Positions 847 to 62,959 of a stretch of DNA of 64,000 nucleotides are shown here, piece after piece. The DNA comes from Sediminispirochaeta bajacaliforniensis DSM 16054 (GTDB lineage Bacteria > Spirochaetota > Spirochaetia > DSM-16054 > Sediminispirochaetaceae). The translations under genes were made by a program, and so were the position numbers. The notes under the pieces were generated by a model. That model saw nothing but the letters and a program-made list of their open reading frames with translations, did no database searches and was not told the DNA's origin. Each line of letters opens with the position of its first letter. The stretch's first letter is position 1. The stretch lies in NCBI RefSeq assembly GCF_000378205.1, contig NZ_KB899406.1:186001-250000 (forward strand). The letters run 5' to 3'.

Positions 847-1374
847 TTATACCGATGCGGTGCTTCCCGTTAAATGGCCGGATTCCCTATGGCTTTCATT
901 TTCATAACCGGCAATGACGGTGAGACTATCGCGGTCGAGTAAGCCTTCAAGATCAAGAATCATAATGAGATTATCATCTTCCTTTGCTATCTCCTTGACC
1001 ACCATTGTGTCCTGAAAGTTGCGGATGTTTTGTGTCGACTGGATCTGGGCATTCTCAATTTCGATGACCTCATGAACATCGTCTACAATAATCCCCATGG
1101 AAAGGGTTTCCTCAAGATTAATCTCAAGCACAATGATCGATGTACTTTGTCCGGGAGTTTTACTTTCGCCTAACCGGAGATTTTGTCTTAGGTCGATAAC
1201 CGGAATCACTTTCCCCCGGATATTGATAACTCCCGAAAGAATATCAGGCGCCCTGGGGACCCGTGTCACCTTTTGGTAGGCAAGGACCTCCCTCACCCAG
1301 TGAATATCGATTGCATACGACTCATCTGCCAGAGAGAAGGTAAGAAAGGTCCTGGTGATAGGTTCTTCACTCAT
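847..1374 (-). CDS. cheW: CheW-like chemotaxis coupling protein
   Basis: A single CheW domain fills almost all of the 175 residues. It runs from FLTFSLADESYAIDIHWVREVL through the conserved region VINIRGKVIPVIDLRQNLRL to IIVDDVHEVIEIE. CheW is a cytoplasmic adaptor that joins chemoreceptors to the kinase CheA. The gene lies 12 bases downstream of a chemoreceptor gene on the same strand, so receptor and adaptor are probably co-transcribed and may act as a dedicated pair. The C-terminal tail of about 25 residues after the domain is polar and unremarkable. Confidence 0.95.
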   Translation of the reverse strand: MSEEPITRTFLTFSLADESYAIDIHWVREVLAYQKVTRVPRAPDILSGVINIRGKVIPVIDLRQNLRLGESKTPGQSTSIIVLEINLEETLSMGIIVDDVHEVIEIENAQIQSTQNIRNFQDTMVVKEIAKEDDNLIMILDLEGLLDRDSLTVIAGYENESHRESGHLTGSTASV

Positions 1375-1386
1375 ATTCCACTCCTT

Positions 1387-3342
1387 TTAAAACTGCTCAA
1401 AGTCATCTGAATCGATCTTGGATGAAAGTGTGATGGCGGTCTCCATTTCCGGATTTTTTCGCGTTATGTGCCTGATTGCCTGTTTGGGAACCTGCCGGGG
1501 GGCTTCCACTGCTATCGGGTACTCCCGCTTTGTGTTTTCATGTTCGTCAATGACAAAGTAGTCTATTGTCCTCTGCAGCTCCTGAGCCTGGTTGTTCAGT
1601 TCGGTGGCAACCGATGCCATCTCTTCGGAAGCCGAGGCATTTTGCTGAATAACCTCATCAAGTTGACTGATTGCCACATTGATCTGTTCTGCACCCTTAC
1701 TTTGTTCCCTGCTGGCCGCGCTGATCTCCTGGACCAATTCGGCCGTCTTATGGATATTGGGTACCAGTTTTGTCAGCATTTGCTGTGCCTTGTCGGCGAC
1801 CGCGACCGAAGATGTCGAGAGGTTCCCTATTTCCCCGGCGGCACTCTTGCTCCTTGCCGCAAGTTTTCCTACCTCTGCGGCGACCACGGCAAATCCCTTT
1901 CCGTGCTCTCCTGCCCTTGCGGCTTCGATGGAAGCGTTTAGCGAAAGCATGTTTGTCTGCCGCGCTATCTCTTCGATAATGGTGATTTTTTCGGCAATCT
2001 GGTTGAGGGCGTTTACCGCCTCCATAACGGCATTCCCGCTCTCTTCCGCATCCGATGCGGCCTGGATCGCAATCTTTTCCGTCTGCATCGCATTATCGGC
2101 ATTCTGACTGATGTTTGCGCTCATCTCCTCCATAGAGGAGGAAACCTCCTCTACCGACGCGGCCTGCTCCGTAGCCCCTTGAGAAAGTTGCTCGGCTGTA
2201 CTGCTGAGCTGCTGACTTCCTGTTGATACTTGCGATGTGGATAGCTTGACCTGCGAGATGGTATGAATCAGATTCTCCTTCATCTTTGTTAAGGCCCCTA
2301 CAAGCCTGCCTATTTCGTCATTGTTTCGATTATGCAATTGTGCGTCGAGTTGGCCGCTTGCAATCTGATCTGCAAAGCCGACCCCCTGGTTGATCGGTTT
2401 GGTGAGGCTTCGGGAAAAGAAGAAGAAGGCGAAGAAGGCGATAAGCAAGGAGACTGCCGCAATGATGATGATCGCCCTTGTAACGGTGGCCACCGGAGCG
2501 AGAAATTCCTCGTTCGATAACGTCAGGGCTATGGACCAATTGGTAAGTTTGATGGGGGCGAAACCGGCGGTTTTTGTCTCGCCTTCGAAAGAATACTCAT
2601 CGATGCCGCTTTCGCCGTTCGCCATTTCTCCGGCGATTTGCTCCATGCCGGCAAGTTCCCTCACATTTGTCGAAAAAACGATGCTCTCCTCGGGATGGGC
2701 AATGATAACTCCTTCGGAGTCTGTTATAAAGGCGTATCCGGTCTCACCTATCTTGGCATCCCTTGTCATCTCTTTCAGCACCGACAGATCCACTAACGCA
2801 ACCAGAGCCCCCCTGAACTCTCCATCTGTGTGAAGCGGAACGCTAATGGGTATGACCGGAGCGTTTGTCATTACATTCTCTATGACCTGGCCAAAGGCGG
2901 CGGAACCCTCCTTTGCCTTCTTGAAGTAATCTCTTTCCCTCAGCTGGAGACCGATGGCGTCGTCATCGGAGGAGACCACTGCGGTTCCCTTTTCGTCCGT
3001 CACAAAGAGCGATTGATAATTTCCGCCAAGTTCATGGTCGTCTACGATTTCCCGAAGATACCGACGTAATACGACCATCGCTTCGTTGCTTTTTGTCGCG
3101 GCCCAGTCCGTTATCTGTGCACTGGTTCCGATACCGATAACAACCTTTTGTTCTGTTGTAAGGATGTTCTCGATGGCTTCGGATAATTCCGCAAGACGAT
3201 AGTTCATTTGCTCGTATTCCAGATTGAGCAACCCGTCCCTTGCTTTGCTTATGGATACGTAGCCCACCGCCCCGAGAGACAGTACGAGAATGACAAAGCT
3301 TATGGAGACAAGCTTTGTCCCTATCTTCATGTTTTTGAACAT
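1387..3342 (-). CDS. Methyl-accepting chemotaxis protein with dCache-type sensor
   Basis: A membrane chemoreceptor of 651 residues. TM1 is near residues 10-30 and is followed by a periplasmic dCache-like sensor (about 35-275, with [13 protein letters not shown] and [16 protein letters not shown]). TM2 (about 288-312) is very hydrophobic. A HAMP domain and the cytoplasmic signalling hairpin follow. The hairpin tip contains [20 protein letters not shown], the CheA/CheW-binding region. The C-terminus ends DSDDFEQF, without the NWETF-type pentapeptide that tethers CheR/CheB. The ligand cannot be told from sequence; dCache receptors often bind amino acids or organic acids. The gene lies between a PAS-LuxR regulator upstream and cheW downstream. 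Confidence 0.95.
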
Positions 3343-16058: not shown

Positions 16059-19000
16059 ATGCATAGAAAAACAAAGTATGGTCAGAAGTTTGACACGCGA
16101 GAAAATCTCTCCAGAGAATATTCTCATTATCTCGATCGTCTGCTTTTGCAATCTTTACCGGCCATCACCGCAGGTGGGGCTGTTGTTTATTTAATTTTTA
16201 CTTTTTCCTACTTCTTTGCGCGGCCGGGCATGGGAGGACGATTTGCATCGGCCTCGAGCTTGTTGGTCTCAATTGGTATGGTTTCGCTTTGGGCTCTTAT
16301 TCATTACAGGAGAATAGCGGAATCCCGTTCTCATTGTATTTCCGCCATCATACTTTTGCTTGTCATTGCTAATTCTGTTTTGCATATTCAAGTTCTCGGT
16401 GATATCAATGAAAGTGTCATTCTGATGCTCATTGTTGTCGCAGATTCTCTGCTCTTTCTAAAGCGTGCGTGGTTCTATACCGCTTTGGGCGGGACGGGAT
16501 TAGCCTGGGGCATTGTTACTTTTCGTTGGTTTGATACCTCTCCCGGCTTTCACTCTTTTTTGGGGATGTTTGCCGCTATGGTACTGTCCATCCTTTTTTT
16601 CAATATCCGGCTGAAATATCTTATCTATAGTTACCGGAATTATCGTAAAGAAAAGGAACGAGCGGATTTTGGTTTGGAGAAATTACTTGAAGCGGAGGAG
16701 GCTTCGAATATTCTAAAACGCCTTACCGAGGTTGCGGTCGAAGGGATTGTTTTCCACGATGGCAAGGTTATTGTCGACTGTAATGATCAGTTTGTGGAAT
16801 TACTGGGCCATTCCAGCAAACAGGAACTCATTGGGACAGATGTGTACAACATTGTCGATGAGAAATCGCGCTCTCTCATGCGGGAAATGGTAGCGAAGGG
16901 ATACTCTGATCCCTATGAGGTAGCGGGACAAAAGAGCGATGGTACGATATTTCCTTTGGTAATTCGGGCAAAGACCATTATCGATTCCGAGGAAAAAATG
17001 CTTAGGGTTGCTATCCTCCATGACCTGACTGAACAGAGACGACTTCGTGATCGGCTTGAAAAGAATGAGGCTCAATATAGGCTTCTTGCTGAGAACTCAA
17101 CGGACATTATTTCTCGCTACTCTCCCAAGGATGGTCTCATCTACGTATCGCCTGCCTGTTTATCTATTTTGGGCTACTCACCGGAGGAATTGGTAGGAAC
17201 TCATGAGTTTAAGCGCCTTATTGTCGGGCCGAATGAGGAACGTTTCGGCATTAAATGGCTTGATAACTACGGCGGAGATATGGTTTCTATCCGAAAAGTA
17301 TCGAAAAAAGGCGGAAAGGAAAGCATCTGGCTTGAGAGTTCCATGCGGGAGGTTTTTAACAAGGAAACATCTTCCAAGGAAGTTGTTATTGTTTCCCGGA
17401 ATGTGACGGCCCGTATGCAGGCAGAAGCGTTACGAAAGCGTCTTGCTTCCATCGTTCAATTTTCCTCCGAAGGTATCGTCTTGCTTTCCCTTGATGGATA
17501 CATTGAAACCTGGAACAAGCGTGCGGAACAGATACTCGGCTATAAGAAGAAGGCGGTACTCCACAAACCCGTGTCGGAGGTCGTCGAGCTTGCGGAATAT
17601 AGCGATATCGACGGGTTGGTACGGCGCATAACACTTGGCGCGTCCGATATGGAAAGTCGTAAAGAGATTGAAACAGGAGAGGGCCCTTCGATAACCCTCT
17701 CTGTCCGTTTTTCTTTGGTCTATGATCACTTTGGAAATATAAATGGGCTTGTTTTGCTGGTAAGAGATATCACCCATCAAGTAGAAGCCGAGCGTTACCT
17801 TACCGTCCAATATGGCGTTACCTCTCTTATCGCTCAGGGTATGGGAAGCCGCGAAGAGATTCTTTTCGGTATTATGGAGAAGCTCTGTACCAGTCTTGGC
17901 TGGCTTGGAGCGGAATTATGGCTTCCCGATGAAGAGAAGATGCTACTTTCCCGCGGAGGGGTCTGGAGCTCTGACAACCAGGGAATAGAAGATTTCTTTG
18001 AAACAAGTAGTGGTACGGTTTTTCGGTACGGTGAAGGGCTTCCTGGTATCGTCTATAGCAAGCATTATCCTGTCTGGATGGCCGATCTCATTGAAACCTC
18101 GAAATTTGTCAGGTCTGATCTCGCCAAGCGGAATGGTTTGAAGAGTTCTGTAGGACTTTGCGTGTACGAGGGCGAGACCGTCTTTGCGATTATCCTGTTG
18201 TTTACCTCAAAACGCTTGGCGAAAAATCAGGACCTTATCGAAATCCTTCATGCCATAGGCGGACAGGTCGGACAGCTGTTGCGAAAAAAAGAGACGGAAC
18301 AGGAATTGCGAAATAGTGAGTCGCGCTTTCGCGCAATAAGCGAGGCATCTCCTCTCGGTCTTTTTGTAACCGACAATGGGGGAAATTGTATCTATACCAA
18401 TAGTCGGTACCAGGATATTACTCATCTCAGTTTTGAGAATGCTTTGGGAAAGGGTTGGGCCCGGGTAATTCATCCCGATGATATCGATACTGTTACAAAA
18501 GAATGGTACAAGTCTGTCGAAGAATCCCGTATATATCAGGGAGTTCATCGAGTCGTTGTCGACGGCGACGATGTCTGGGTCAGTGTTCATGGAGCGGCAT
18601 TCAGGGATCATGATAAGGTCATAGGCCATGTCGGCACAATGGAAGATATTACCAGACAACGACAGCAGGATGCTGAATTGGAAAGGTATTCTCTTCATCT
18701 CAGTGATTTGGTCGAAGAGCGAACAAAGGAGCTTCGTTTGCTCCAGAAACAGCTCCTTGACCGTCAGCGCGATCAACAGGAACTACAGCTGGCGGCCGAT
18801 GTACAAAGAAACTTGTTGCCGCAAAAGCTTCCGACGTTTCCCGGTTTTTCTTTTTCCGCACAGGCCTATCCCGCCAGATATGTAAGCGGGGATTTCTATG
18901 ATTTTGTGACCTGTGATGACAAAATTCTTTATGTTCACTTGGCCGATATTGCCGGAAAAGGTATCCCTGCTGCTCTCCTGACCTCGTCGGCCCGGGCTTT

Positions 19001-19931
19001 CCTGCGTTCCGGGAGTGAGGGGGGGCTGGAACCTGATGCCATGATTTCATCGGTAAACGACCATCTTTTTGAAGATCTTCTCGCTTCGGAAAAGTTTATC
19101 ACCATGCAAGTAGCCAAAATAAATTCGGATACGGGACGCATCCAATATGCCAGTGCCGGACATACCGATGCATTGCACTTTGTGTCAGCTGCTTCCCGTG
19201 TCGAAAGAATTGGGGCTACCTCGCTTCCCGTAGGTATTGTGAGGCAGCTTGATTCGGAGATGGAAGAGATTGCGCCGCGTCCGGGAGATCTGTTTTTGTT
19301 TTACAGCGATGGTGTAACCGAAGCTGAGAATGAGAACGGAGAATTGTTTGGTGTCGAACGCTTGGAACAGATCTTTTTGAAGTGCGGAAAAGAACGAAAA
19401 GGGAATGATGAGATCCTTCAGACGATTCTTACAGCCGTTGATAGCTTTTCCGGAACCGAGTATCGAAGCGATGATGTCACCCTTATTGTCTTTTCGGCGG
19501 ATTCGCGCTTTCCGTCGCGGCAGGAACCGAATGTTCTTGATGCCATTGATAGCCTTGCTTCGTGGGTGAACGTTCAACTTATGGGATATGGTGAAGAGAT
19601 TAGTTCTCAAGTGGAGCTTTGTGCCTCAGAACTCATTACCAATTCCATACGCCACGCCTATGGTGGTGTTGAATCCGAAGGATTGGGAAAGGACTATGTT
19701 CGAATCAGCCTGGAACTTGAGGCCGATTCGATTGTCTTTCATCTCTTCGACAGGGGCAAGTCCTTTCGTTTTGATGCCGTCGAAGAACCCAACCTGGAAC
19801 AGGCCAATGAGGGCGGCTATGGGCTTTGGCTTATCCGTCAGGTGATGGATGAGGTCCTCTACCATCCTGGCCAGCAGGGAGAAGAAAATCATTGGATACT
19901 GAAAAAGCGTATGGAAAGGAGTCTGATATGA
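16059..19931 (+). CDS. Membrane PAS/GAF sensor with PP2C phosphatase and RsbW-like kinase domains
   Basis: A 1290-residue signalling protein. About six transmembrane helices (residues 28-190) are followed by PAS domains near 212-320, 338-455, 458-585 and 755-875, with a GAF domain at about 590-750. After a coiled coil comes a SpoIIE/RsbU-type PP2C phosphatase (about 920-1145; SGDFYDFVTCDDKILYVHLAD and GDLFLFYSDGVTEAENENGE). Last is a HATPase of the RsbW anti-sigma kinase type (about 1150-1285; N-box CASELITNSIRHAY, G-box EGGYGLWLIRQVMD). Having opposing phosphatase and kinase domains in one chain suggests it sets the phosphorylation state of a STAS protein, most likely the one encoded at 21959. 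The stop overlaps the next start (ATGA). Confidence 0.93.
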   Translation: MHRKTKYGQKFDTRENLSREYSHYLDRLLLQSLPAITAGGAVVYLIFTFSYFFARPGMGGRFASASSLLVSIGMVSLWALIHYRRIAESRSHCISAIILLLVIANSVLHIQVLGDINESVILMLIVVADSLLFLKRAWFYTALGGTGLAWGIVTFRWFDTSPGFHSFLGMFAAMVLSILFFNIRLKYLIYSYRNYRKEKERADFGLEKLLEAEEASNILKRLTEVAVEGIVFHDGKVIVDCNDQFVELLGHSSKQELIGTDVYNIVDEKSRSLMREMVAKGYSDPYEVAGQKSDGTIFPLVIRAKTIIDSEEKMLRVAILHDLTEQRRLRDRLEKNEAQYRLLAENSTDIISRYSPKDGLIYVSPACLSILGYSPEELVGTHEFKRLIVGPNEERFGIKWLDNYGGDMVSIRKVSKKGGKESIWLESSMREVFNKETSSKEVVIVSRNVTARMQAEALRKRLASIVQFSSEGIVLLSLDGYIETWNKRAEQILGYKKKAVLHKPVSEVVELAEYSDIDGLVRRITLGASDMESRKEIETGEGPSITLSVRFSLVYDHFGNINGLVLLVRDITHQVEAERYLTVQYGVTSLIAQGMGSREEILFGIMEKLCTSLGWLGAELWLPDEEKMLLSRGGVWSSDNQGIEDFFETSSGTVFRYGEGLPGIVYSKHYPVWMADLIETSKFVRSDLAKRNGLKSSVGLCVYEGETVFAIILLFTSKRLAKNQDLIEILHAIGGQVGQLLRKKETEQELRNSESRFRAISEASPLGLFVTDNGGNCIYTNSRYQDITHLSFENALGKGWARVIHPDDIDTVTKEWYKSVEESRIYQGVHRVVVDGDDVWVSVHGAAFRDHDKVIGHVGTMEDITRQRQQDAELERYSLHLSDLVEERTKELRLLQKQLLDRQRDQQELQLAADVQRNLLPQKLPTFPGFSFSAQAYPARYVSGDFYDFVTCDDKILYVHLADIAGKGIPAALLTSSARAFLRSGSEGGLEPDAMISSVNDHLFEDLLASEKFITMQVAKINSDTGRIQYASAGHTDALHFVSAASRVERIGATSLPVGIVRQLDSEMEEIAPRPGDLFLFYSDGVTEAENENGELFGVERLEQIFLKCGKERKGNDEILQTILTAVDSFSGTEYRSDDVTLIVFSADSRFPSRQEPNVLDAIDSLASWVNVQLMGYGEEISSQVELCASELITNSIRHAYGGVESEGLGKDYVRISLELEADSIVFHLFDRGKSFRFDAVEEPNLEQANEGGYGLWLIRQVMDEVLYHPGQQGEENHWILKKRMERSLI

Positions 19932-21955
19932 AATCGGATGGCGCGCGCTTTTGGGGCTGTTTTGCTCCTTCGGACGATCCCCGAAGAATAAAGACACGGG
20001 TACTGGGATTCCGTGTACTTGCAGCAGCTACTATTGTCCTTGCTTTTAACTACATCATTTGGCGTTATACGAAGAGCCTCAATCTTAACGCCCTTTGGTT
20101 TGCTATTCCCATGGTAGTTGCCGAAACCTATGGAATCATAGAGAGCTTTCTTTTCATTTTTATGATCTGGAAGCCTGCAAGCCGCCGGACCCCAACTGCT
20201 CTTGCGACAGGCTCGGTCGATGTTTTTATCGTGACCTATGATGAGCCTGTGGAATTGCTTCGGATGACGGCAGAGGCCGCCATGAATATCCGCTGGCGTG
20301 ATAAGTCGGTCTTCATCCTGGATGACGGAAACCGACCGGCCATGGCAAGGCTTGCCGACGAGCTTGGCTGCTCCTATATTACTCGTGGTAGTGAGTGGGA
20401 AAGCAAGCCACGTCACGCAAAGGCCGGGAACATCAATAATGCCCTGCTGCAAACCTCCGGGGAATATATCCTGATTCTTGATGCCGATCAGATTCCTGCT
20501 CCTCTCATCGTGGAGCACACCATCGGTTATTTTTCGGATCCGGAAATCGCATTTGTCCAGACACCTCAGTATTTTTACAATATCCCTCCGGGGGATCCTT
20601 TCGGTAGTGATGCTCCGCTTTTTTACGGCCCGATCCAGCAGGGCAAGGATGGAAGAAATGCCGCCTTTTTTTGCGGTTCGAATGCACTACTCAGGAGGGA
20701 AGCCCTGCTCCAGCTTGGTCTGACCGGCTTTGTTCAGGAAATGGAAGAACAGATGGAAGAGGGCATAGCACGGCTTCGAAAAAGTGTGCGAAAGATTAAT
20801 ACCTCCACGAAAAGTCAGAAAGAAGCCAGAGCTATTCTCAAAGAGGGCTTGAAAAGGGCTGAGCAATTAATTAAAACGGGCTCTCCCCTTGAGCACGCCA
20901 GCGATCAGGTGCGGAAGGCCCTTCGGGATGCCGAGAAGGTGATGACTGCCTCCGATGTAGGGGAGATAGCCCTGATGTTACGTGAGATGGCGGAGCAGGG
21001 GGACCAGGCGGCCATGGAGGCCTATACTCAACTTATCGCGAGTCAGGAGGATCTATTCACAAGTACGGAGGAAGAGCAGCCGGGAGCAAGGATGGGATTC
21101 TCCGTTAGTGACTTGGAGAGCATCAATCTAACCCGTTCCGAAGAGGCCATACCCATCCAGTCGCTGGTAACCATCAGTGTGACTGAAGATATGGCAACGG
21201 CAATGCGGCTTCATTCCCTCGGTTGGAAAAGCATCTTCCACTCGGAAATTCTTGCCTACGGCTTAGCTCCGGAGGATCTCGAGAGTTCTCTCAAACAACG
21301 GCTTCGCTGGGCCCAGGGGACAATCCAGGTCTTTTTCAAGGAAAACCCGTTTCGTATCAAAGGGCTCAGCTTTACTCAGCGTTTAATGTACTTTGCCACC
21401 ATGTATTCATATTTCAGTGGCTTCTTTACTATTATCCTGCTTCTTGCTCCTGCTGTGTACCTCTTTACCGCTATTCCCCCTGTTACCTCCTGGTCCTGGG
21501 AATTTCTTGCCCACTTACTGCCGTTTTTTATTCTGAATAAGCTGCTCTTTCGTTATCTGTCCTGGGGAATCCCTGTGCATCGAGGAGAGCAGTACAATCT
21601 CGGCCTCTTCCCTATTTTCATTAAAGCGACGTTGACAGCCCTTTTTAAAAAGAATTTGTCTTTTATCGTCACTCCGAAAAATCGACAGCGCCGACATGGC
21701 GGACTCAATCTTGTCATCCCTCAATTGGGGGTCATACTTGTCACGGCCATGGCCATGGTTTACGGCACGTTTTCTTATGTGAATGGTTCGGCGCTTACTA
21801 TCGGAGGTTTACTGATTAATTGTGGATGGGGACTCTACAACATCTATATGCTTTCTGCCATTGTCTATGCCGCCGTATATAAAGCGCCGGAGGGATGGGA
21901 AGCTCATCCTCCTGCTTCGCTTTTTCCAGGCGACTATAATAAACATAAGGAGTAA
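19928..21955 (+). CDS. Cellulose-synthase-like family 2 glycosyltransferase with inserted coiled region
   Basis: A 675-residue processive GT2 enzyme with N-terminal helices (about 28-80) and several C-terminal transmembrane helices (from about 485). Catalytic motifs are present: DDGN (132-135), DAD (185-187), TED (419-421) and QRLRW (457-461). Between the acceptor region FFCGSNALLRREAL and TED there is an extra stretch of about 145 charged residues (267-412) rich in Glu, Lys and Arg, predicted helical or coiled. In ordinary BcsA-like enzymes this distance is about 20-30 residues. The start at 19928 has an ideal AAAGGAG and overlaps the preceding stop; an upstream ATG at 19892 is less likely. 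It probably makes a surface or secreted polysaccharide under control of the neighbouring partner switch. No PilZ domain is apparent. Confidence 0.9.
   Translation: MKSDGARFWGCFAPSDDPRRIKTRVLGFRVLAAATIVLAFNYIIWRYTKSLNLNALWFAIPMVVAETYGIIESFLFIFMIWKPASRRTPTALATGSVDVFIVTYDEPVELLRMTAEAAMNIRWRDKSVFILDDGNRPAMARLADELGCSYITRGSEWESKPRHAKAGNINNALLQTSGEYILILDADQIPAPLIVEHTIGYFSDPEIAFVQTPQYFYNIPPGDPFGSDAPLFYGPIQQGKDGRNAAFFCGSNALLRREALLQLGLTGFVQEMEEQMEEGIARLRKSVRKINTSTKSQKEARAILKEGLKRAEQLIKTGSPLEHASDQVRKALRDAEKVMTASDVGEIALMLREMAEQGDQAAMEAYTQLIASQEDLFTSTEEEQPGARMGFSVSDLESINLTRSEEAIPIQSLVTISVTEDMATAMRLHSLGWKSIFHSEILAYGLAPEDLESSLKQRLRWAQGTIQVFFKENPFRIKGLSFTQRLMYFATMYSYFSGFFTIILLLAPAVYLFTAIPPVTSWSWEFLAHLLPFFILNKLLFRYLSWGIPVHRGEQYNLGLFPIFIKATLTALFKKNLSFIVTPKNRQRRHGGLNLVIPQLGVILVTAMAMVYGTFSYVNGSALTIGGLLINCGWGLYNIYMLSAIVYAAVYKAPEGWEAHPPASLFPGDYNKHKE
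20726..21163 (+). other. Inserted helical segment within the glycosyltransferase
   Basis: This part of the glycosyltransferase gene encodes residues about 267-412. They include EMEEQMEEGIARLRKSVRKI, ARAILKEGLKRAEQLIK, QVRKALRDAEKVMTA and GEIALMLREMAEQGDQAAME. The segment is amphipathic and separates the catalytic core from its TED motif. It may be a docking site for the STAS protein or another regulator. This is an inference from position and composition. Confidence 0.6.
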
Positions 21956-38351: not shown

Positions 38352-38535
38352 GAAACTTGGCGCCGGTCCGATACATCTGCTCTATATGTTATCGTGGTAG
38401 TGAATTTATTCCCTCTTGCGATAGGTAGATCCATATTCATAAAAATAAAAGTTACCTAAAACCTTAGCATGGCCGATCCCAATAGATTATGCTTTGATGC
38501 ATTACCAATATATCTAATGCGGAGGAATGCTCTTA

Positions 38536-40644
38536 ATGAAACAGAGCCTTGCACCAGTAATACAGATTGATGAAAGTAAATGTGTAAACTGCCATGCCTG
38601 TATAGCTTCTTGTCCGGTTAAATACTGCATAGACGGAAGCGGCTCTACCGTAACGATTCATCATGATCTCTGTATAGGGTGCGGGAAATGCATAGAAGCC
38701 TGCACGCACAATGCGCGATCAGTGGTTGACGACACAGAGGCCTTTTTCGATGCCTTATCACGCAAAGAGCCCATGATCGCCATCGTTGCCCCTTCCGTCG
38801 CTTCAAGTTTCCCCGATTCTTACCTCAGGCTGAACGGGTATTTAAAGTCCTTAGGTATTGAGGCCTTTTTTGATGTAAGCTTTGGGGCCGAGCTTACCGT
38901 TGCTTCCTATATCAATCATATCAAAACGGATAATCCCGATCTTGTCATAGCCCAGCCCTGTCCTGCCATTGTTACCTACATTGAAATATATCATCCGGAG
39001 CTCATTCCTTATCTTGCGCCGGCACACAGTCCTATGCTCCATACCATTGCCATGATTCAGGAATATCGAAAAGAGTTTGCAGACCATAACGTTGCCGTTC
39101 TTTCTCCCTGCATTGCAAAAAAACGGGAATTTGCAGAAACAAAGATGGGAGACTACAATGTCACCTTCCTTATGCTGAAAGCATATATGAAGGCTAAAGG
39201 GATTGCCCTTTCTTCTTATCCGGAGGTCGACTTTACCGGCCCGGATGCCGAGCGTGCTGTCATGTTTTCGACGCCCGGAGGGCTGATGCAGACGGTGGAG
39301 CGTTCTTCGCCCGAACTCCTTTCGGGGATCAGGAAGATTGAAGGTGTTCCCGGGATTTATGAGTATCTTGCCGAGCTTAAGGCTGTTCGTGGTAAGGGGA
39401 TGCAGCCGCGCCTTGTGGACTGCCTCAATTGTGATCTTGGATGTAACGGCGGAACAGGGACGGGGCTTTCCGAGGCACATGCCGACGAGATCGAGTATCC
39501 TATAAAAAAACGAAGGTCCGAGGCCATTCGACAATACGGTAAGGGTTCTCTGAAACCGAAGGTCCGAGCGAAAAAAGTTGATAAGATCATCTCACAGTAC
39601 TGGAACGAGGGACTGTACAGGCGAAAGTACCGTGATCTTTCGAATAATTTCTCTTTAAAAACGCCCAATACCGAGGAACTTGAAGAAATCTACAAAAGCA
39701 TGCTGAAAGAGAATGAAGAGGATTTTCTGAATTGCGCCTCCTGCGGCTACGGAACCTGTGAGGCCATGGCATTTGCCATCTTTAATGGCCTTAACAAACC
39801 CGAAAATTGCCACCACTACCGGCAGGCAATTGTCACAAAGCAGCAGAATATGATGATAGATCTTGCAAGGAACCTCCATGAAAAAATAGAGAAGGCAGAA
39901 CACCTTATTCTCAATGTCAAGGAGATCACAGCGGATGTCGAAGGAAAAAGCGAGGAGCAGTTTAAAGCAATAGAAGAATCGGCAAGTGCTGTGGAACAGA
40001 TGATCCAGTCCGTACATGAAACTTCAGCCTTGTCCGGTAGCAAACGGGAATCCATCTCGTCCTTGAAAGAGTTTGCCCAGTCCAGTGATGAGGAAATGAA
40101 GGAGACCATTGAGGCTATCGAGAGTTTAAGTGCATCTGTCGAAGGTATTGGAGACTTTGTCGATATCATTGATCAGGTAGCATCGAATACAAACCTCCTT
40201 TCAATGAATGCCGCGATCGAGGCTGCTCATGCGGGAGAATCCGGAAAAGGCTTTGCCGTAGTTGCCGAAGAGATGCGAAGATTAGCCGATATGAGCGGGG
40301 AAAACGCTTTGGTTATTCAACAGACACTTGATAAGATGCTGGAACGGATCAATACGACGGCATCCGTATCGCAGAAGGCAACCCAATCCATGAAGCAGGT
40401 TATTGAAGGATCTGAGGACATGGCAGAAAGCATGCTGACAATCATCCATACGATGGACGAAATGTCAGCGGCAGGAAGTCAGATCGTTACCTCTCTGGAG
40501 AGCCTAAAAACCCTTTCTTCCGAGGTTCAAACGGTATACCATGATGTTATGACCTCAGTCTCGGGCGTGAGTGAAACGGTGTCCGCCATCGGAACGCTGT
40601 CCCGCGAAACTATGGCGGTCATTCATGAGACGGAAATGGAGTAG
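38536..40644 (+). CDS. Sensory [FeFe]-hydrogenase fused to a chemoreceptor signalling domain
   Basis: A 702-residue cytoplasmic protein with no membrane segment. Residues 11-65 hold two 4Fe-4S ferredoxin motifs ([22 protein letters not shown]). Residues about 80-330 are the H-cluster domain. The four cluster cysteines appear kept: C142 (AQPCPA), C192 (LSPCIAKK), C299 and C303 (NCDLGCNGG). The proton-transfer cysteine before C142 is Pro141. Residues 398-426 carry another Fe-S motif ([11 protein letters not shown]425). From about 440 to the end is a receptor signalling hairpin with [20 protein letters not shown]. Loss of the proton-transfer cysteine points to a sensor, not a bulk catalyst. It probably reports H2 or redox state to CheA. 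Start at ATG 38536, nine bases after GGAGGA. Confidence 0.92.
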
Positions 40645-58480: not shown

Positions 58481-59725
58481 TCAATCCCTTTGATCTCTGT
58501 TCCGGTTCCTCCAGTAGTCGTAGGCAAAATCAAAAGGCCTCAGGGCACGTTCGAAGATGCCGAGGGAGTAGGCGATGGTGAGTCCGTAGTTGGTGATGGG
58601 CACACCTGCGGCCTTGCAGGTCATGATGCGTGAGAGCACCTCTCTGCGGTTCGTCATACAGGCCCCGCAGTGGATCACCAGGCTGTAGGTACAAAGGTCC
58701 GGTGGAAAGTCATGGCCCTGGATATGGTCGAAGGTAAGCTTTGCTCCGGTGTACTGGGTAAGCCAGCGGGGGATTTTTACCCGACCGATGTCTTCGGCAA
58801 TGGGATGATGGGTGCAGGCTTCGGCTATGAGGATCTTGTCTCCCGATTTCAAATCATCGATGGCGAGAGTCCCCCTGACCATTTCCAGAAGGTCGCCTTG
58901 TTTGCGGGCGAAGAGCACGGAAAAGGAGGTCATGAGGATATCGTCCGGTGTATCTGCGGCAACCTTCAAAAAGGCCTGGGAATCGGTGATCACGATCTTC
59001 GGTGGCTTTTTAAGCATCTCCAGGGCTGCGGTAAGTTCCCGCTCCTTGACCACCATACAGCAGGCGTCGCTGTCGAGAATATTGCGGATCGTCTGTACCT
59101 GGGGTAGGATAAGTCGTCCCTTGGGTGCTTCTTTGTCGATGGGGATGACTAAAATTGCCGTTTCTCCGTCCCTGACAATATCTCCGATGATCTCCTGCTC
59201 ATTCACGAAATCTGCGGGTACGCTTTTGAGCAGGCCCTGTTTTAATTCCAGAATTCCACTTTCTTCCTTGGCACTAACAAAAACGTAGGGGAGCTTCTTT
59301 TCCTCCAGCTTGGCGGGGAGCCCGGAGAACTCCCTTCCATAGAGGTCTGTTTTGTTGATGACGACGATAACCGGGGTTTCCCGCTTCCTGAATTCCCCAA
59401 GCAGCAGATCCTCGAAATGATCCCACTTTTCCCCTTCGATGACGATCATGGCGATATCCAGCCGGTCCATTACCCTGCGGCTTTTTTCGATCCGCAAGGC
59501 GCCGAGGGCCCCTTCGTCGTCGATACCTGCCGTGTCGATAAAAAGAACGGGCCCCAGGGGTAACAACTCCATCGGCTTTTCGACGGGATCGGTGGTGGTC
59601 CCTGCCTGGTCGGAAACAATGGATACCTGCTGTTTCGTGAGGGCGTTGAGAATGCTCGATTTGCCGGCATTGCGCTTTCCGAAGATGCCGATATGGAGGC
59701 GCAAGCCCTTCGGTGTCTTTGTCAT
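58481..59725 (-). CDS. hydF: [FeFe]-hydrogenase maturation GTPase HydF
   Basis: The scaffold on which the 2Fe part of the H-cluster is built and then handed to apo-hydrogenase. The 414 residues hold a GTPase domain (GKRNAGKSSILNALTKQQ, DTAGIDDEG, VINKTDLYG), a dimerisation domain and a C-terminal Fe-S domain with EACTHHPIAEDIG and HCGACMTNRREV, the HydF cysteine/histidine set. It is the last gene of the hydG-orf-aspartase-hydF operon, three bases after the aspartase gene. Confidence 0.95.
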   Translation of the reverse strand: MTKTPKGLRLHIGIFGKRNAGKSSILNALTKQQVSIVSDQAGTTTDPVEKPMELLPLGPVLFIDTAGIDDEGALGALRIEKSRRVMDRLDIAMIVIEGEKWDHFEDLLLGEFRKRETPVIVVINKTDLYGREFSGLPAKLEEKKLPYVFVSAKEESGILELKQGLLKSVPADFVNEQEIIGDIVRDGETAILVIPIDKEAPKGRLILPQVQTIRNILDSDACCMVVKERELTAALEMLKKPPKIVITDSQAFLKVAADTPDDILMTSFSVLFARKQGDLLEMVRGTLAIDDLKSGDKILIAEACTHHPIAEDIGRVKIPRWLTQYTGAKLTFDHIQGHDFPPDLCTYSLVIHCGACMTNRREVLSRIMTCKAAGVPITNYGLTIAYSLGIFERALRPFDFAYDYWRNRNRDQRD

Positions 59726-59728
59726 ACC

Positions 59729-61138
59729 TTACTCCTGGGGTGTGCCGAGGCGGGTGACCGCCTCTGATGATATTGCCTGTGTAAACTGCGCATCGCTCAA
59801 AAGCCCAAGCCCAACCGCGGCTTCCCTGAGGGTCGAACCCTTCTCTTTTGCAAAAAGAAGGAGCTCTTCGGCTTTTTCATAGCCGATAGAGGGGATGAGA
59901 GCGGTGGCTATGGCGCTGGCCCCTTCAAGGTGGCGTCCTATTTCATCGCTGCGGGCCTTAATCCCTTTGACGCAAAACTCCGCCAGGACCTTGCTCGCCG
60001 AGCTCAGCTCGCCGATGCCGGAAAGCAGGCAGTGGGCGATAAGGGGGAGAAAAGGGTTGAGTTCAAGATTTCCCGATGAGGCGGCCAGGGTGATGGCCTG
60101 ATCGTATCCCATATACATAAAGGCGCTTTGCACCACAGCCTCGGGAATGACCGGGTTGATTTTTCCGGGCATGATCGAGGAGCCCCCCTGGCGGGGGGGC
60201 AGCGTTATTTCGCAGAACCCCGCCTGGGGCCCGGAAGAGATAAGCCTCAGATCATTTGAGATTTTGACCAGGGTCGATGCGTAGGCCTTCAACAGGCCCG
60301 AGACCTCGACGAAAACGTCTGCATTCTGGGTTCCGTCGATCAGATTTTCCGCCCGGGCAAAGCCGATACCGGTGAGCCCCCTGAGCTTTTCGGTTACCTG
60401 CATGATATAGCTTCTGGGGGCTCCCAGTCCGGTACCGATTGCCGTTCCTCCGAGATTTACCACTCTCAGCCGTTCTTTCGTTTTGTATAAACGCCAGCGG
60501 TCCCTGGAGAGGACGTCGGCATAGGCCGACATCTCCCTCCCCAGGGTGGTAAGAACGGCATCCTGAAGCTGGGTCCTCCCAATCTTCACGATAGAGGCGA
60601 ACTCCCGTTCCTTTGCCTGGAAGGCCTCCTGGAGGGCGACAATCTCCTTTTCCAGTACTTCGATAAGACGGATTGCCGCAAGCCGCAGGGCTGTAGGGTA
60701 GGTGTCGTTGGTAGATTGATGGAGATTGACATCGTCGAGTGGTGAAATGACCTGATAGGAACCCTTCGGAAGGTCGAGAATTTCCAGGGCCCTGTTTGCG
60801 ATCACCTCGTTGACATTCATGTTGGTAGATGTTCCCGCTCCTCCCTGAAGAGCGTCGACAATGATACTCTCGTCGAATTTCCCCGCTGCCACCTCACCAC
60901 AGGCCTGTTCAATGGCCTCTCCTTTTCGGCTCTCCCAGGTCGCAAGGGCACGGTTTACCTGGCAGGCGGCCAGTTTCACCATGCCGTAGGCGTGTATCAG
61001 TTCCGGAGAAACCGACTGTTTTGAAATAGGAAAATTGACGGCGGCCCTTCGGCTGTGGATTCCCCAGTAGGCATCCCGAGGAATATCCATTTCACCGAGC
61101 AGGTCCCGCTCCCGTCTGGTTTCTCCGTCCATCGTCAT
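59729..61138 (-). CDS. aspA: Aspartate ammonia-lyase in the hydrogenase maturation operon
   Basis: A 469-residue member of the aspartase/fumarase superfamily, converting L-aspartate to fumarate and ammonia. Motifs are RRERDLLGEMDIPRDAYWGI, HSRRAAVNFPISKQSVSPEL, GAGTSTNMNVNEVIANRALE and the signature GGSSIMPGKINPVIPE. SPLDDVNLHQSTNDTYPTAL favours aspartase over fumarase. The ATG at 61138 overlaps the preceding stop (ATGA). Aspartase genes in hyd maturation operons are known in other anaerobes. One idea is that it supplies ammonia for the bridging amine of the H-cluster; this is inference. Confidence 0.88.
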   Translation of the reverse strand: MTMDGETRRERDLLGEMDIPRDAYWGIHSRRAAVNFPISKQSVSPELIHAYGMVKLAACQVNRALATWESRKGEAIEQACGEVAAGKFDESIIVDALQGGAGTSTNMNVNEVIANRALEILDLPKGSYQVISPLDDVNLHQSTNDTYPTALRLAAIRLIEVLEKEIVALQEAFQAKEREFASIVKIGRTQLQDAVLTTLGREMSAYADVLSRDRWRLYKTKERLRVVNLGGTAIGTGLGAPRSYIMQVTEKLRGLTGIGFARAENLIDGTQNADVFVEVSGLLKAYASTLVKISNDLRLISSGPQAGFCEITLPPRQGGSSIMPGKINPVIPEAVVQSAFMYMGYDQAITLAASSGNLELNPFLPLIAHCLLSGIGELSSASKVLAEFCVKGIKARSDEIGRHLEGASAIATALIPSIGYEKAEELLLFAKEKGSTLREAAVGLGLLSDAQFTQAISSEAVTRLGTPQE

Positions 61139-61440
61139 TGCTGTACTGCCACCCTTTCTTTTAAAGATTCCGCAAGAGCCAAACAGAGCTCCTTCCACTG
61201 CTCAGGGGAAAGACGCAACTCATCGGCAAGGAGACCCCAGCCGGAGCCAAGATCCCTGCGGTTCCGGCCGGTCAGCACCTCTGAAGTCCCGACGGTGTAG
61301 GCCCACCGCTTTCCGAAAATCGAGCAGATCCATACATGTTGACCAAACTCACGCTCCAGCCATACCGTTACCTGCCGCAGGGCCGAGAGCCTGTCCTGAT
61401 TTTCATCGAAAAGGGTCCCGATCCGATCAGATATAGACAT
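61135..61440 (-). CDS. Unknown small protein of the hydrogenase maturation operon
   Basis: A 101-residue soluble protein that I do not recognise. It starts ISDRIGTLFDENQDRLSALR and contains WLEREFGQHVWICSIFGKRW, then a helical C-terminus (SPEQWKELCLALAESLKERV). It has two cysteines that do not form a metal motif. The start overlaps the hydG end by 14 bases and its stop overlaps the aspartase start by four, so it is certainly translated with them. It is not the ACT-like TM1266 protein found in other hyd operons. Confidence 0.72.
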   Translation of the reverse strand: MSISDRIGTLFDENQDRLSALRQVTVWLEREFGQHVWICSIFGKRWAYTVGTSEVLTGRNRRDLGSGWGLLADELRLSPEQWKELCLALAESLKERVAVQQ

Positions 61441-62959
61441 CCCGTTCTCCCGCCTCGGTGCGCCTTACCATCTCCTCGAAGGTCGCAAGAAGCGTCCCCT
61501 TCTTGAAAAACGGCTCGTTCCGAATCTCTTCCATTTCCTTTGCGATCACCTTTTCCCCGACCTTCTTTGTCGCAGGGGAGGCAAAATCATCCAGATATTC
61601 ACGGAAGGTGAGTACCGCATTGAGCTTGCAGAACTTTCCCTCTTTGCAGCTTTTCAGCAGCCCCATGATCTTGTCGCCTGTTCGTCCGCATCGATATCCT
61701 GCGGTACAGAAGGAAGATATCATCCCCATTTCGGCGAATTCCCTCATCACCGCGTCGAGGCGGCGGGTTTCCCCCAGGGTAAACTGCTGGATATCCTGAT
61801 CCTGTTCGTAGGGGTAGTCCTCCCGCTCCTGCAGGGCCTTGAGGGTCTCTGTATAGCCGCCTATACCGATTCGGGTGGAGGCATCCGTCTGGGTGCATCC
61901 AACCTTGATCACCTCTTTCTTTATGCCGGGGGCTTCTCTCGCCGTTACAATCAGCCCCGTGTAGGGGACTGCAAGACGCAGGACGGTAACAAGCTTCTTG
62001 AAACTGGAATCGTCGACAAGATAAGAGGAGTTTGCACTGAAATCTGATCCGCTGGCGGGAGTCATTCTCGGAAAGGAGATGGTGTGGGGTCCGATCCCGA
62101 AATGATTTTCGAGGTCGATGGTGTGCTGTAAGAGTCCCATCACCTCGAAGCGCCAATCGTAGAGACCGAAGAGGGCCCCCATGGCAACATCGTCGATCCC
62201 CGCATCCATGGCCCTGTGCAGTGCATAGAGGCGCCAGCGATAGTTTCCCTTGAGGGTTCCGGCCGGGTGGAGGGATGCATAGGTTGGTTTATGATAGGTC
62301 TCCTGGAAGACCTGGTAGGTTCCTATTCCCACTTCCCACAGCTTGTGGAGATCCGCTATGGACATGGGAGCGGCATTTACGTTGATCCTTCGAATCTGTC
62401 CGAAGCCCTTACCCCTGCGGGCAGGCTTTTTGACCTCGTAGGCGGCCCTGATGGTATCGCACATATAGTTGACATCGGAGAGGGGGTGCTCGCCGTAGAC
62501 AATCATCATCCGCTTATGCCCTTCGGTCACCATTACCTCTGTCTCTTGCTTTACCTCTTCCATGGTCAGGCGCCGTCGCTTTTCGTGGCTGTTTTCCGCA
62601 CGAAAGCCGCAGTAAAGGCAGCTATTTACACAATAGTTCGAACAATAGAGGGGGGCGAAGAACACGATACGATTATCGTAGACCTTTTGCTTGACCTTCA
62701 GGCCGGTTTCGTACATCTCTTCCCAGAGATCATCATCTCTTACATTCAGAAGTACAGCGGTTTCTTCCGGTCCAAGTCGTTCAATCGCAAGCGATTTTGC
62801 GAGGATATCCCGAATCCTCGTCTTATCTGACTTCCTGTTGTTCTGCAGTAAGCTCTTGATCTCTTCTTCATCGATGAAATCCCTTCCGTTTTTGAGGTAT
62901 CTATCGATCTCATCCTGCTTGATAACCTGTGCCGTCCATTCTTTTACGCTCAGCGGCAT
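61427..62959 (-). CDS. hydG: [FeFe]-hydrogenase maturase HydG, variant C-terminal cluster motif
   Basis: A 510-residue radical SAM tyrosine lyase that makes CO and cyanide for the H-cluster. The SAM cluster motif is C110, C114, C117 (CVNSCLYCGF). The protein aligns with HydG over its whole length, including GRGFGQIRRINVNAAPM-like and CTQTDASTRIG stretches. The C-terminal auxiliary-cluster motif, normally CX2CX22C, reads CTAGYRCGRTG: C418 and C444 are kept, the middle Cys is Gly421, and extra Cys occur at 424 and 438. The start has a strong AAGGAGGGAG. It is the first gene of the operon; HydE is not encoded in the window. Confidence 0.93.
   Translation of the reverse strand: MPLSVKEWTAQVIKQDEIDRYLKNGRDFIDEEEIKSLLQNNRKSDKTRIRDILAKSLAIERLGPEETAVLLNVRDDDLWEEMYETGLKVKQKVYDNRIVFFAPLYCSNYCVNSCLYCGFRAENSHEKRRRLTMEEVKQETEVMVTEGHKRMMIVYGEHPLSDVNYMCDTIRAAYEVKKPARRGKGFGQIRRINVNAAPMSIADLHKLWEVGIGTYQVFQETYHKPTYASLHPAGTLKGNYRWRLYALHRAMDAGIDDVAMGALFGLYDWRFEVMGLLQHTIDLENHFGIGPHTISFPRMTPASGSDFSANSSYLVDDSSFKKLVTVLRLAVPYTGLIVTAREAPGIKKEVIKVGCTQTDASTRIGIGGYTETLKALQEREDYPYEQDQDIQQFTLGETRRLDAVMREFAEMGMISSFCTAGYRCGRTGDKIMGLLKSCKEGKFCKLNAVLTFREYLDDFASPATKKVGEKVIAKEMEEIRNEPFFKKGTLLATFEEMVRRTEAGERDVYI

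Follow-up and report, generated by a model that had tools for sequence, protein, structure and literature searches.

What does a chemoreceptor sense when its input module is the H-domain of an [FeFe]-hydrogenase? The question is raised by one gene in a 64,000-nucleotide stretch of Sediminispirochaeta bajacaliforniensis DSM 16054 (contig NZ_KB899406.1, positions 186,001 to 250,000; this whole stretch is called the window), which joins the H-domain to the signalling hairpin of a methyl-accepting chemotaxis protein (MCP). We consider it probable that the encoded protein is a soluble cytoplasmic H2/redox chemoreceptor of the group C2 kind, with an H-cluster matured by HydEFG. Residues are numbered here on the 705-residue form of the protein (ATG at 38527); the numbering of an earlier note on this DNA, which used the 702-residue form, is three lower. 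The gene and its parts are as follows.

38521 to 38526, plus strand: Shine-Dalgarno-like GGAGGA, favouring the ATG at 38536 (sequence read)
38536 to 40644, plus strand: H-domain chemoreceptor gene, 702 residues (open reading frame, Pfam, 97%-identical same-genus orthologue)
38560 to 38718, plus strand: two [4Fe-4S] ferredoxin motifs, residues 12-64, with C19, C22, C25, C29, C49, C52, C55 and C59 (Pfam Fer4 families)
38770 to 39453, plus strand: [FeFe]-hydrogenase H-domain, residues 82-309, with C145, C195, C302, C306, K198 and the extra C299 (PF02906, Foldseek, conservation)
39733 to 39810, plus strand: C-terminal Fe-S motif Cx2Cx4Cx16C, residues 403-428 (PF04060, exact motif match)
39811 to 40638, plus strand: MCP signalling hairpin, helices 429-568 and 570-704 (PF00015, AlphaFold2, tip comparison)

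The longest open reading frame (38527 to 40644, plus strand) is intact and encodes 705 residues, and the alternative ATG at 38536, giving 702, is probably the true start of the gene, since the GGAGGA sits 9 nucleotides upstream of it. All domains, Fer4 included, score above their own Pfam cut-offs: Fe_hyd_lg_C (PF02906) on residues 82-309 with 110.6 bits (cut-off 22.1), FeS (PF04060) on residues 401-429 with 26.8 bits (cut-off 23) and MCPsignal (PF00015) on residues 514-669 with 99.9 bits (cut-off 34.6). The protein has 18 Cys residues, of which eight are ferredoxin ligands, four are H-cluster ligands and four belong to Cx2Cx4Cx16C, the remaining two being C34 and C299. The highest 19-residue hydropathy mean is 1.09, and the protein therefore has no membrane helix. 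The AlphaFold2 model, built on a 63-row alignment with a mean pLDDT (predicted local distance difference test) of 87.7, consists of a hydrogenase-like body followed by two helices, the first of 140 residues (429-568) and the return helix of 135 (570-704), and the top Foldseek matches are the [FeFe]-hydrogenases CbA5H, DdHydAB, HydABC and CpI (best E 3e-17). By-eye scanning for methyl-accepting sites gave a single partial match to the consensus. The earlier note had described ferredoxin motifs, an H-domain with cluster cysteines C142, C192, C299 and C303, a further Fe-S motif and a chemoreceptor hairpin in one chain without membrane segments, and had named structure prediction as a check; Pfam, the hydropathy maximum and the hydrogenase fold plus receptor hairpin found by AlphaFold2 and Foldseek bear out this description, the four cysteines being C145, C195, C302 and C306 in the present numbering.

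The group A proton-transfer Cys is replaced by Pro144, directly before C145 (motif QPCP, as against TSCCP in group A), the position of CpI Met353 is occupied by Ser193 (motif SPC) and that of CpI Met497 by Leu300 or its neighbour (motif LNC; in the CxxGC alignment, two positions before the third ligand). With all three residues replaced, the protein is not a prototypical group A hydrogenase. The Lys in position 198, in SPCIAKK, corresponds to CpI K358, the [2Fe]-binding lysine, and places the domain in the H-domain superfamily. The same note had read the Pro and the Ser correctly, and its point that sensory enzymes lose these residues agrees with the characterised sensory pattern (PMC8163306). 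The lost proton-transfer Cys together with C-terminal Cx2Cx4Cx16C is the combination of the sensory groups C and D (M2f and M2e), and the motif is common to TmHydS and TamHydS of these groups (PMC8163306). TmHydS (group C, M2f, Thermotoga maritima) resembles the window protein in its two [4Fe-4S] clusters, its H-domain without the proton-transfer Cys and its Cx2Cx4Cx16C cluster, but its two Met positions are occupied by Gly and Ser, and it ends in a PAS domain and has no chemoreceptor hairpin; Pfam detects no PAS domain after the C-terminal cluster of the window protein, where MCPsignal is found instead. TamHydS (group D, M2e, Thermoanaerobacter mathranii) shares Ser and Leu at Met353 and Met497 and the C-terminal Fe-S motif (PMC8163306), but has no output domain. 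Cytoplasmic MCPs (the Tsr-type hairpin, the Thermotoga maritima MCP 2ch7) are similar in tip sequence and hairpin; the window protein differs in lacking a periplasmic ligand-binding domain, HAMP and membrane helices, and its input is the H-domain.

Of 60 relatives, about a dozen have the same architecture of about 700 residues, at 47-97% identity. Conservation was followed in 80 relatives from genome_contigs, the best 80 of 522 confirmed places, which are mostly Spirochaetota with many Treponema metagenome-assembled genomes, and which also include Clostridium, Bacteroidota, Chlorobiota, Geobacteraceae, Acidobacteriota, Verrucomicrobiota, Planctomycetota and Rifleibacteriota. All 16 cluster-ligand Cys residues (the eight of the ferredoxin motifs included) are kept in 80/80, and so are K198, S168-P169, P89 and the extra C299 with its signature DCLNCxxGC. 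C299 has no equivalent in the proteins of groups A, B, C and D that were compared from the window genome and related genomes. Pro replaces the proton-transfer Cys in nearly all receptor members, and one member of the class-wide sample described below, G191, is without K198. The architecture is old and widespread and its ligands are conserved; a chance or artefactual fusion is therefore rejected, as the arrangement recurs in about a dozen relatives and 80 distant loci. A degenerate Nar1/NARF-like H-domain was also considered and is not supported, every ligand and K198 being retained. Many of the closest relatives are labelled Treponema, many of them with termite-gut-style bin names that point to a termite origin. 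Ballor et al. in 2012 reportedly described hydrogen sensor/transducer proteins of termite-gut treponemes and proposed methylation or chemotaxis outputs for them; these organisms belong to the same phylum as the window organism and to another spirochaete family.

In the H-domain tree the sensor module forms one clade (98 in the Shimodaira-Hasegawa-like approximate likelihood-ratio test, SH-aLRT), apart from groups A, B and D and from HydS-like proteins. Most members of the clade terminate in the MCP hairpin, and some carry another output: PAS-like, Hpt-like and CheA-like HATPase parts at L047, a similar arrangement at L185 (HATPase over the cut-off, Hpt by eye), PAS with a histidine kinase at L088, and PAS with a SpoIIE phosphatase at L081 and L083. 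Such swapped outputs fit a role of the H-domain in signal input.

In a sister clade, three H-like domains with altered ligand motifs (L223, L224 and L225, in G191, G252 and G099) are fused to GGDEF-EAL cyclic di-GMP domains, a fusion confirmed by Pfam for L223 and by eye for L224. In the related L220-L222 the fusion partners are PAS, GAF-like or hybrid histidine kinase parts.

A class-wide sample of 248 Spirochaetia genomes, 49 with the receptor (two through partial matches) and 199 without, relates it to chemotaxis. CheW is present in 49/49 receptor genomes and in 132/199 others (p 4e-8, uncorrected for shared ancestry). The receptor gene is followed in a row by CheW, CheB and CheR at L059 and forms an operon with CheB and CheR at L087, and at 14 loci it is adjoined on the same strand by a gene for a single-domain response regulator of about 125-220 residues; two of these 14 were tested and both match Response_reg. 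The hairpin tip of the window protein resembles those of the other MCPs of its genome, with up to 39/60 residues shared. That genome has nearly 30 MCPs and 10 CheW-domain matches, three of which lie in open reading frames of CheA-like size (719-859 residues; kinase domains unchecked).

L060, L066, L074, L086, L089-L092, L101, L105, L110, L114, L117 and L118, same strand: adjoining response-regulator loci (spirochaetes, mostly labelled Treponema)
847 to 1374 of the window, minus strand: CheW adaptor, a possible partner, one of about ten CheW-domain matches in the genome (PF01584, 117.5 bits)

The conserved architecture, the operons with CheW, CheB and CheR, the presence of CheW in every receptor genome and the CheA-like outputs of sister proteins make a direct link between the H-domain and the CheA-facing hairpin well supported. 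The earlier note had proposed that H2 or redox state is read by the cluster and sent directly to CheA; this proposal is partly supported, in that the link to the CheA-facing hairpin agrees with it, and it is plausible from sequence that H2 is the ligand and is read by a full H-cluster.

In the mechanism we propose, the H-cluster would be matured by HydE, HydF and HydG of the same genome. Electrons from H2 would enter an H-cluster of low turnover and the ferredoxin clusters at the N terminus, or these clusters would come to equilibrium with the ferredoxin/H2 redox poise, and a redox-linked conformational change would pass through the C-terminal [4Fe-4S] domain to the directly joined receptor hairpin. 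The hairpin could then shift CheA kinase activity via CheW, so that the cell would be steered by H2 or redox state. The sequences show the fused input and output, the conserved ligands, the coupling to chemotaxis genes and the maturases of this genome; we infer that the clusters are loaded, that the signal is H2 or the ferredoxin poise, how it is transmitted, and in which direction and how strongly CheA responds. In TamHydS, H2 alters the secondary structure and does not reduce the C-terminal cluster (PMC13104023), which makes transmission more likely to be conformational than by electron transfer to that cluster.

Two of the maturases lie in the window, as the earlier note had pointed out, and HydE is encoded outside it, on another contig.

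58481 to 59725, minus strand: HydF maturation GTPase (TIGR03918, 562 bits)
61427 to 62959, minus strand: HydG radical S-adenosylmethionine maturase (TIGR03955, 442 bits)

In one relative (G221) the receptor gene stands between hydE (9 bp, convergent) and hydG-hydF (53 bp, divergent). HydF, detected by the HydF-specific Pfam domain PF18133, is present in 28/49 receptor genomes as against 50/199 others (p 3e-5, uncorrected for shared ancestry), HydG and HydE having been sought by profile searches. The same searches yield the points that weigh against an H-cluster matured by HydEFG. PF18133 is missing from 21 of the 49 receptor-bearing genomes; none of these 21 has HydG over the cut-off, and among them HydE exceeds its cut-off only in G050, with a weak HydE-like match in G046. 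In 19/49 none of the three maturases is found by the three profile searches, and several of these genomes are 99% complete in few contigs. Mapped on the receptor tree, HydF changes between presence and absence at least 7 to 10 times, and the site is unchanged. Finally, the literature searched yielded no biochemical data on any MCP-fused member, the window protein included.

How should the maturase-free genomes be understood? Either there is another maturation route, or the H-domain works without the [2Fe] subcluster, or divergent maturases were missed. That some members in the 19 genomes act as chemoreceptors and either lack the [2Fe] subcluster or obtain their cofactor by a route not yet known is a tentative proposal that we regard as doubtful; if true, it would make the H-domain a redox or H2 sensor independent of the known maturation pathway. 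In receptors from genomes that lack HydF, C145, C195, C302, C306, K198 and S168-P169 are retained wherever the position is present. Among the HydEFG-less receptor genomes, some retain group A H-domains that look catalytic (TSCCP, MPC) and others retain group B ones; the former indicate that the cofactor may be present even where the known maturases are absent. Nothing obvious in the way of new maturases was seen beside the hydrogenases of these genomes, where tblastn with known maturases gave no hits, and a literature search on hydrogenase genomes without HydEFG returned nothing relevant.

The proteins concerned can be listed. Group A H-domains, most with TSCCP/MPC, occur with no HydF, HydG or HydE over the cut-off in the spirochaete genomes G046, G075, G085, G143, G157, G203, G230, G236, G240 and G244 (L206-L216, L219). 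Treponema-like genomes with the receptor, a group-B-like H-domain protein of about 490-550 residues and no recognised HydE, HydF or HydG are G156 (L200), G218 (L201), G188 (L202), G246 (L203), G106 (L204), G152 (L205) and G180 (L217).

Among the rival explanations, the one with most weight is that the window protein is an Fe-S redox chemoreceptor with no need of the [2Fe] subcluster. Ferredoxin or redox state would be read by [4Fe-4S]H together with the three accessory clusters, and the H-domain would be kept as a scaffold. The 19 receptor genomes without all three maturases, some of them 99% complete in 2-60 contigs, and the retention of every Fe-S ligand speak for it. On the other hand, none of the 20 receptors examined from HydF-less genomes has a change in K198 or S168-P169, residues that in CpI line the [2Fe] site, several HydEFG-less genomes keep canonical group A TSCCP H-domains, and the window genome has HydEFG; we hold this explanation to be unlikely for the window protein. 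With HydEFG in its genome, the H-cluster reading remains the better one here.

Reaction with O2 and CO is known for H-clusters and for exposed Fe-S clusters, and the organism encodes anaerobic H2 metabolism, both of which would suit a sensor of a cluster-poisoning gas (O2, CO or NO) with a repellent response in an anaerobe; neither the neighbours nor the sequence gives a pointer to any of these gases, and we judge such a sensor improbable. Still less credible is a hydrogenase that works as a catalyst while docked to chemoreceptor arrays, its MCP part being there for localisation or electron delivery and not for signalling. Its ferredoxin clusters and H-domain are indeed complete, but Pro in place of the proton-transfer Cys in nearly all members, the low turnover of characterised enzymes without this Cys, and the exchange of outputs for kinases and phosphatases, which fits signalling, make it very improbable.

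The pairing of H-domain and MCP has a precedent in HydDB, which lists an [FeFe] group C2, 'Chemotactic (putative)', that may sense H2 through methyl-accepting chemotaxis proteins (PMC5037454); the window protein has both partners in one chain. HydDB set C2 by sequence clustering without function. The window gene is a member of this already proposed type, placed in it by architecture and description; since HydDB already has the group, the architecture is not new. An acetogen survey dropped its C2 predictions after validation checks (PMC9431212), which suggests that plain MCPs can be mistaken for C2; this is not so for the window protein. The DCLNCxxGC Cys, the CheA-like output, the hydE-receptor-hydG-hydF neighbourhood and the maturase-free members were not found in the literature searched, an absence that is no proof of novelty. 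No test of H2 taxis via a dedicated H-cluster receptor was found in the same literature, though such taxis has been proposed for years. A one-chain receptor with a readable CheA output would make H-cluster sensing directly measurable, and the maturase-free relatives are a natural contrast on whether a sensing H-domain needs the [2Fe] subcluster.

The receptor gene is surrounded by genes for an Nramp transporter, a universal stress protein and a Crp/Fnr-type regulator, which are rejected as operon partners because they are not recurrent in relatives. No informative promoter or terminator signal was seen around the gene, and the locus has no Rfam match. The window genome also encodes three group A H-domains, one HydS-like protein and a short group-D-like protein (L006) that lies far from the receptor clade in the tree. 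The HydS-like protein (L004, G000:C12:131281-132510) has a PAS-like C-terminal part by eye and is followed directly by a SpoIIE-like phosphatase gene, an arrangement that fits HydDB group C3; a divergent CBS/phosphatase-like gene precedes it. On a contig of 14.6 kb an H-domain is broken into pieces that lie in different frames (L007, G000:C39:1080-1274), probably the remains of a hydrogenase gene turned pseudogene.

Three further observations concern the window. In 58481-62959 (minus strand) hydF and hydG are separated by a gene of the aspartate ammonia-lyase type (59729-61198), an arrangement also reported for Pelobacter carbinolicus (PMC3543383). In 847-3342 (minus strand) the CheW gene adjoins a dCache-HAMP-MCP receptor gene. 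In 16059-21955 (plus strand) the gene for a 1290-residue multi-PAS protein, which also has phosphatase and RsbW-like parts, shares an overlap with the start of a gene of the cellulose-synthase-like kind, and the two may be under coupled regulation.
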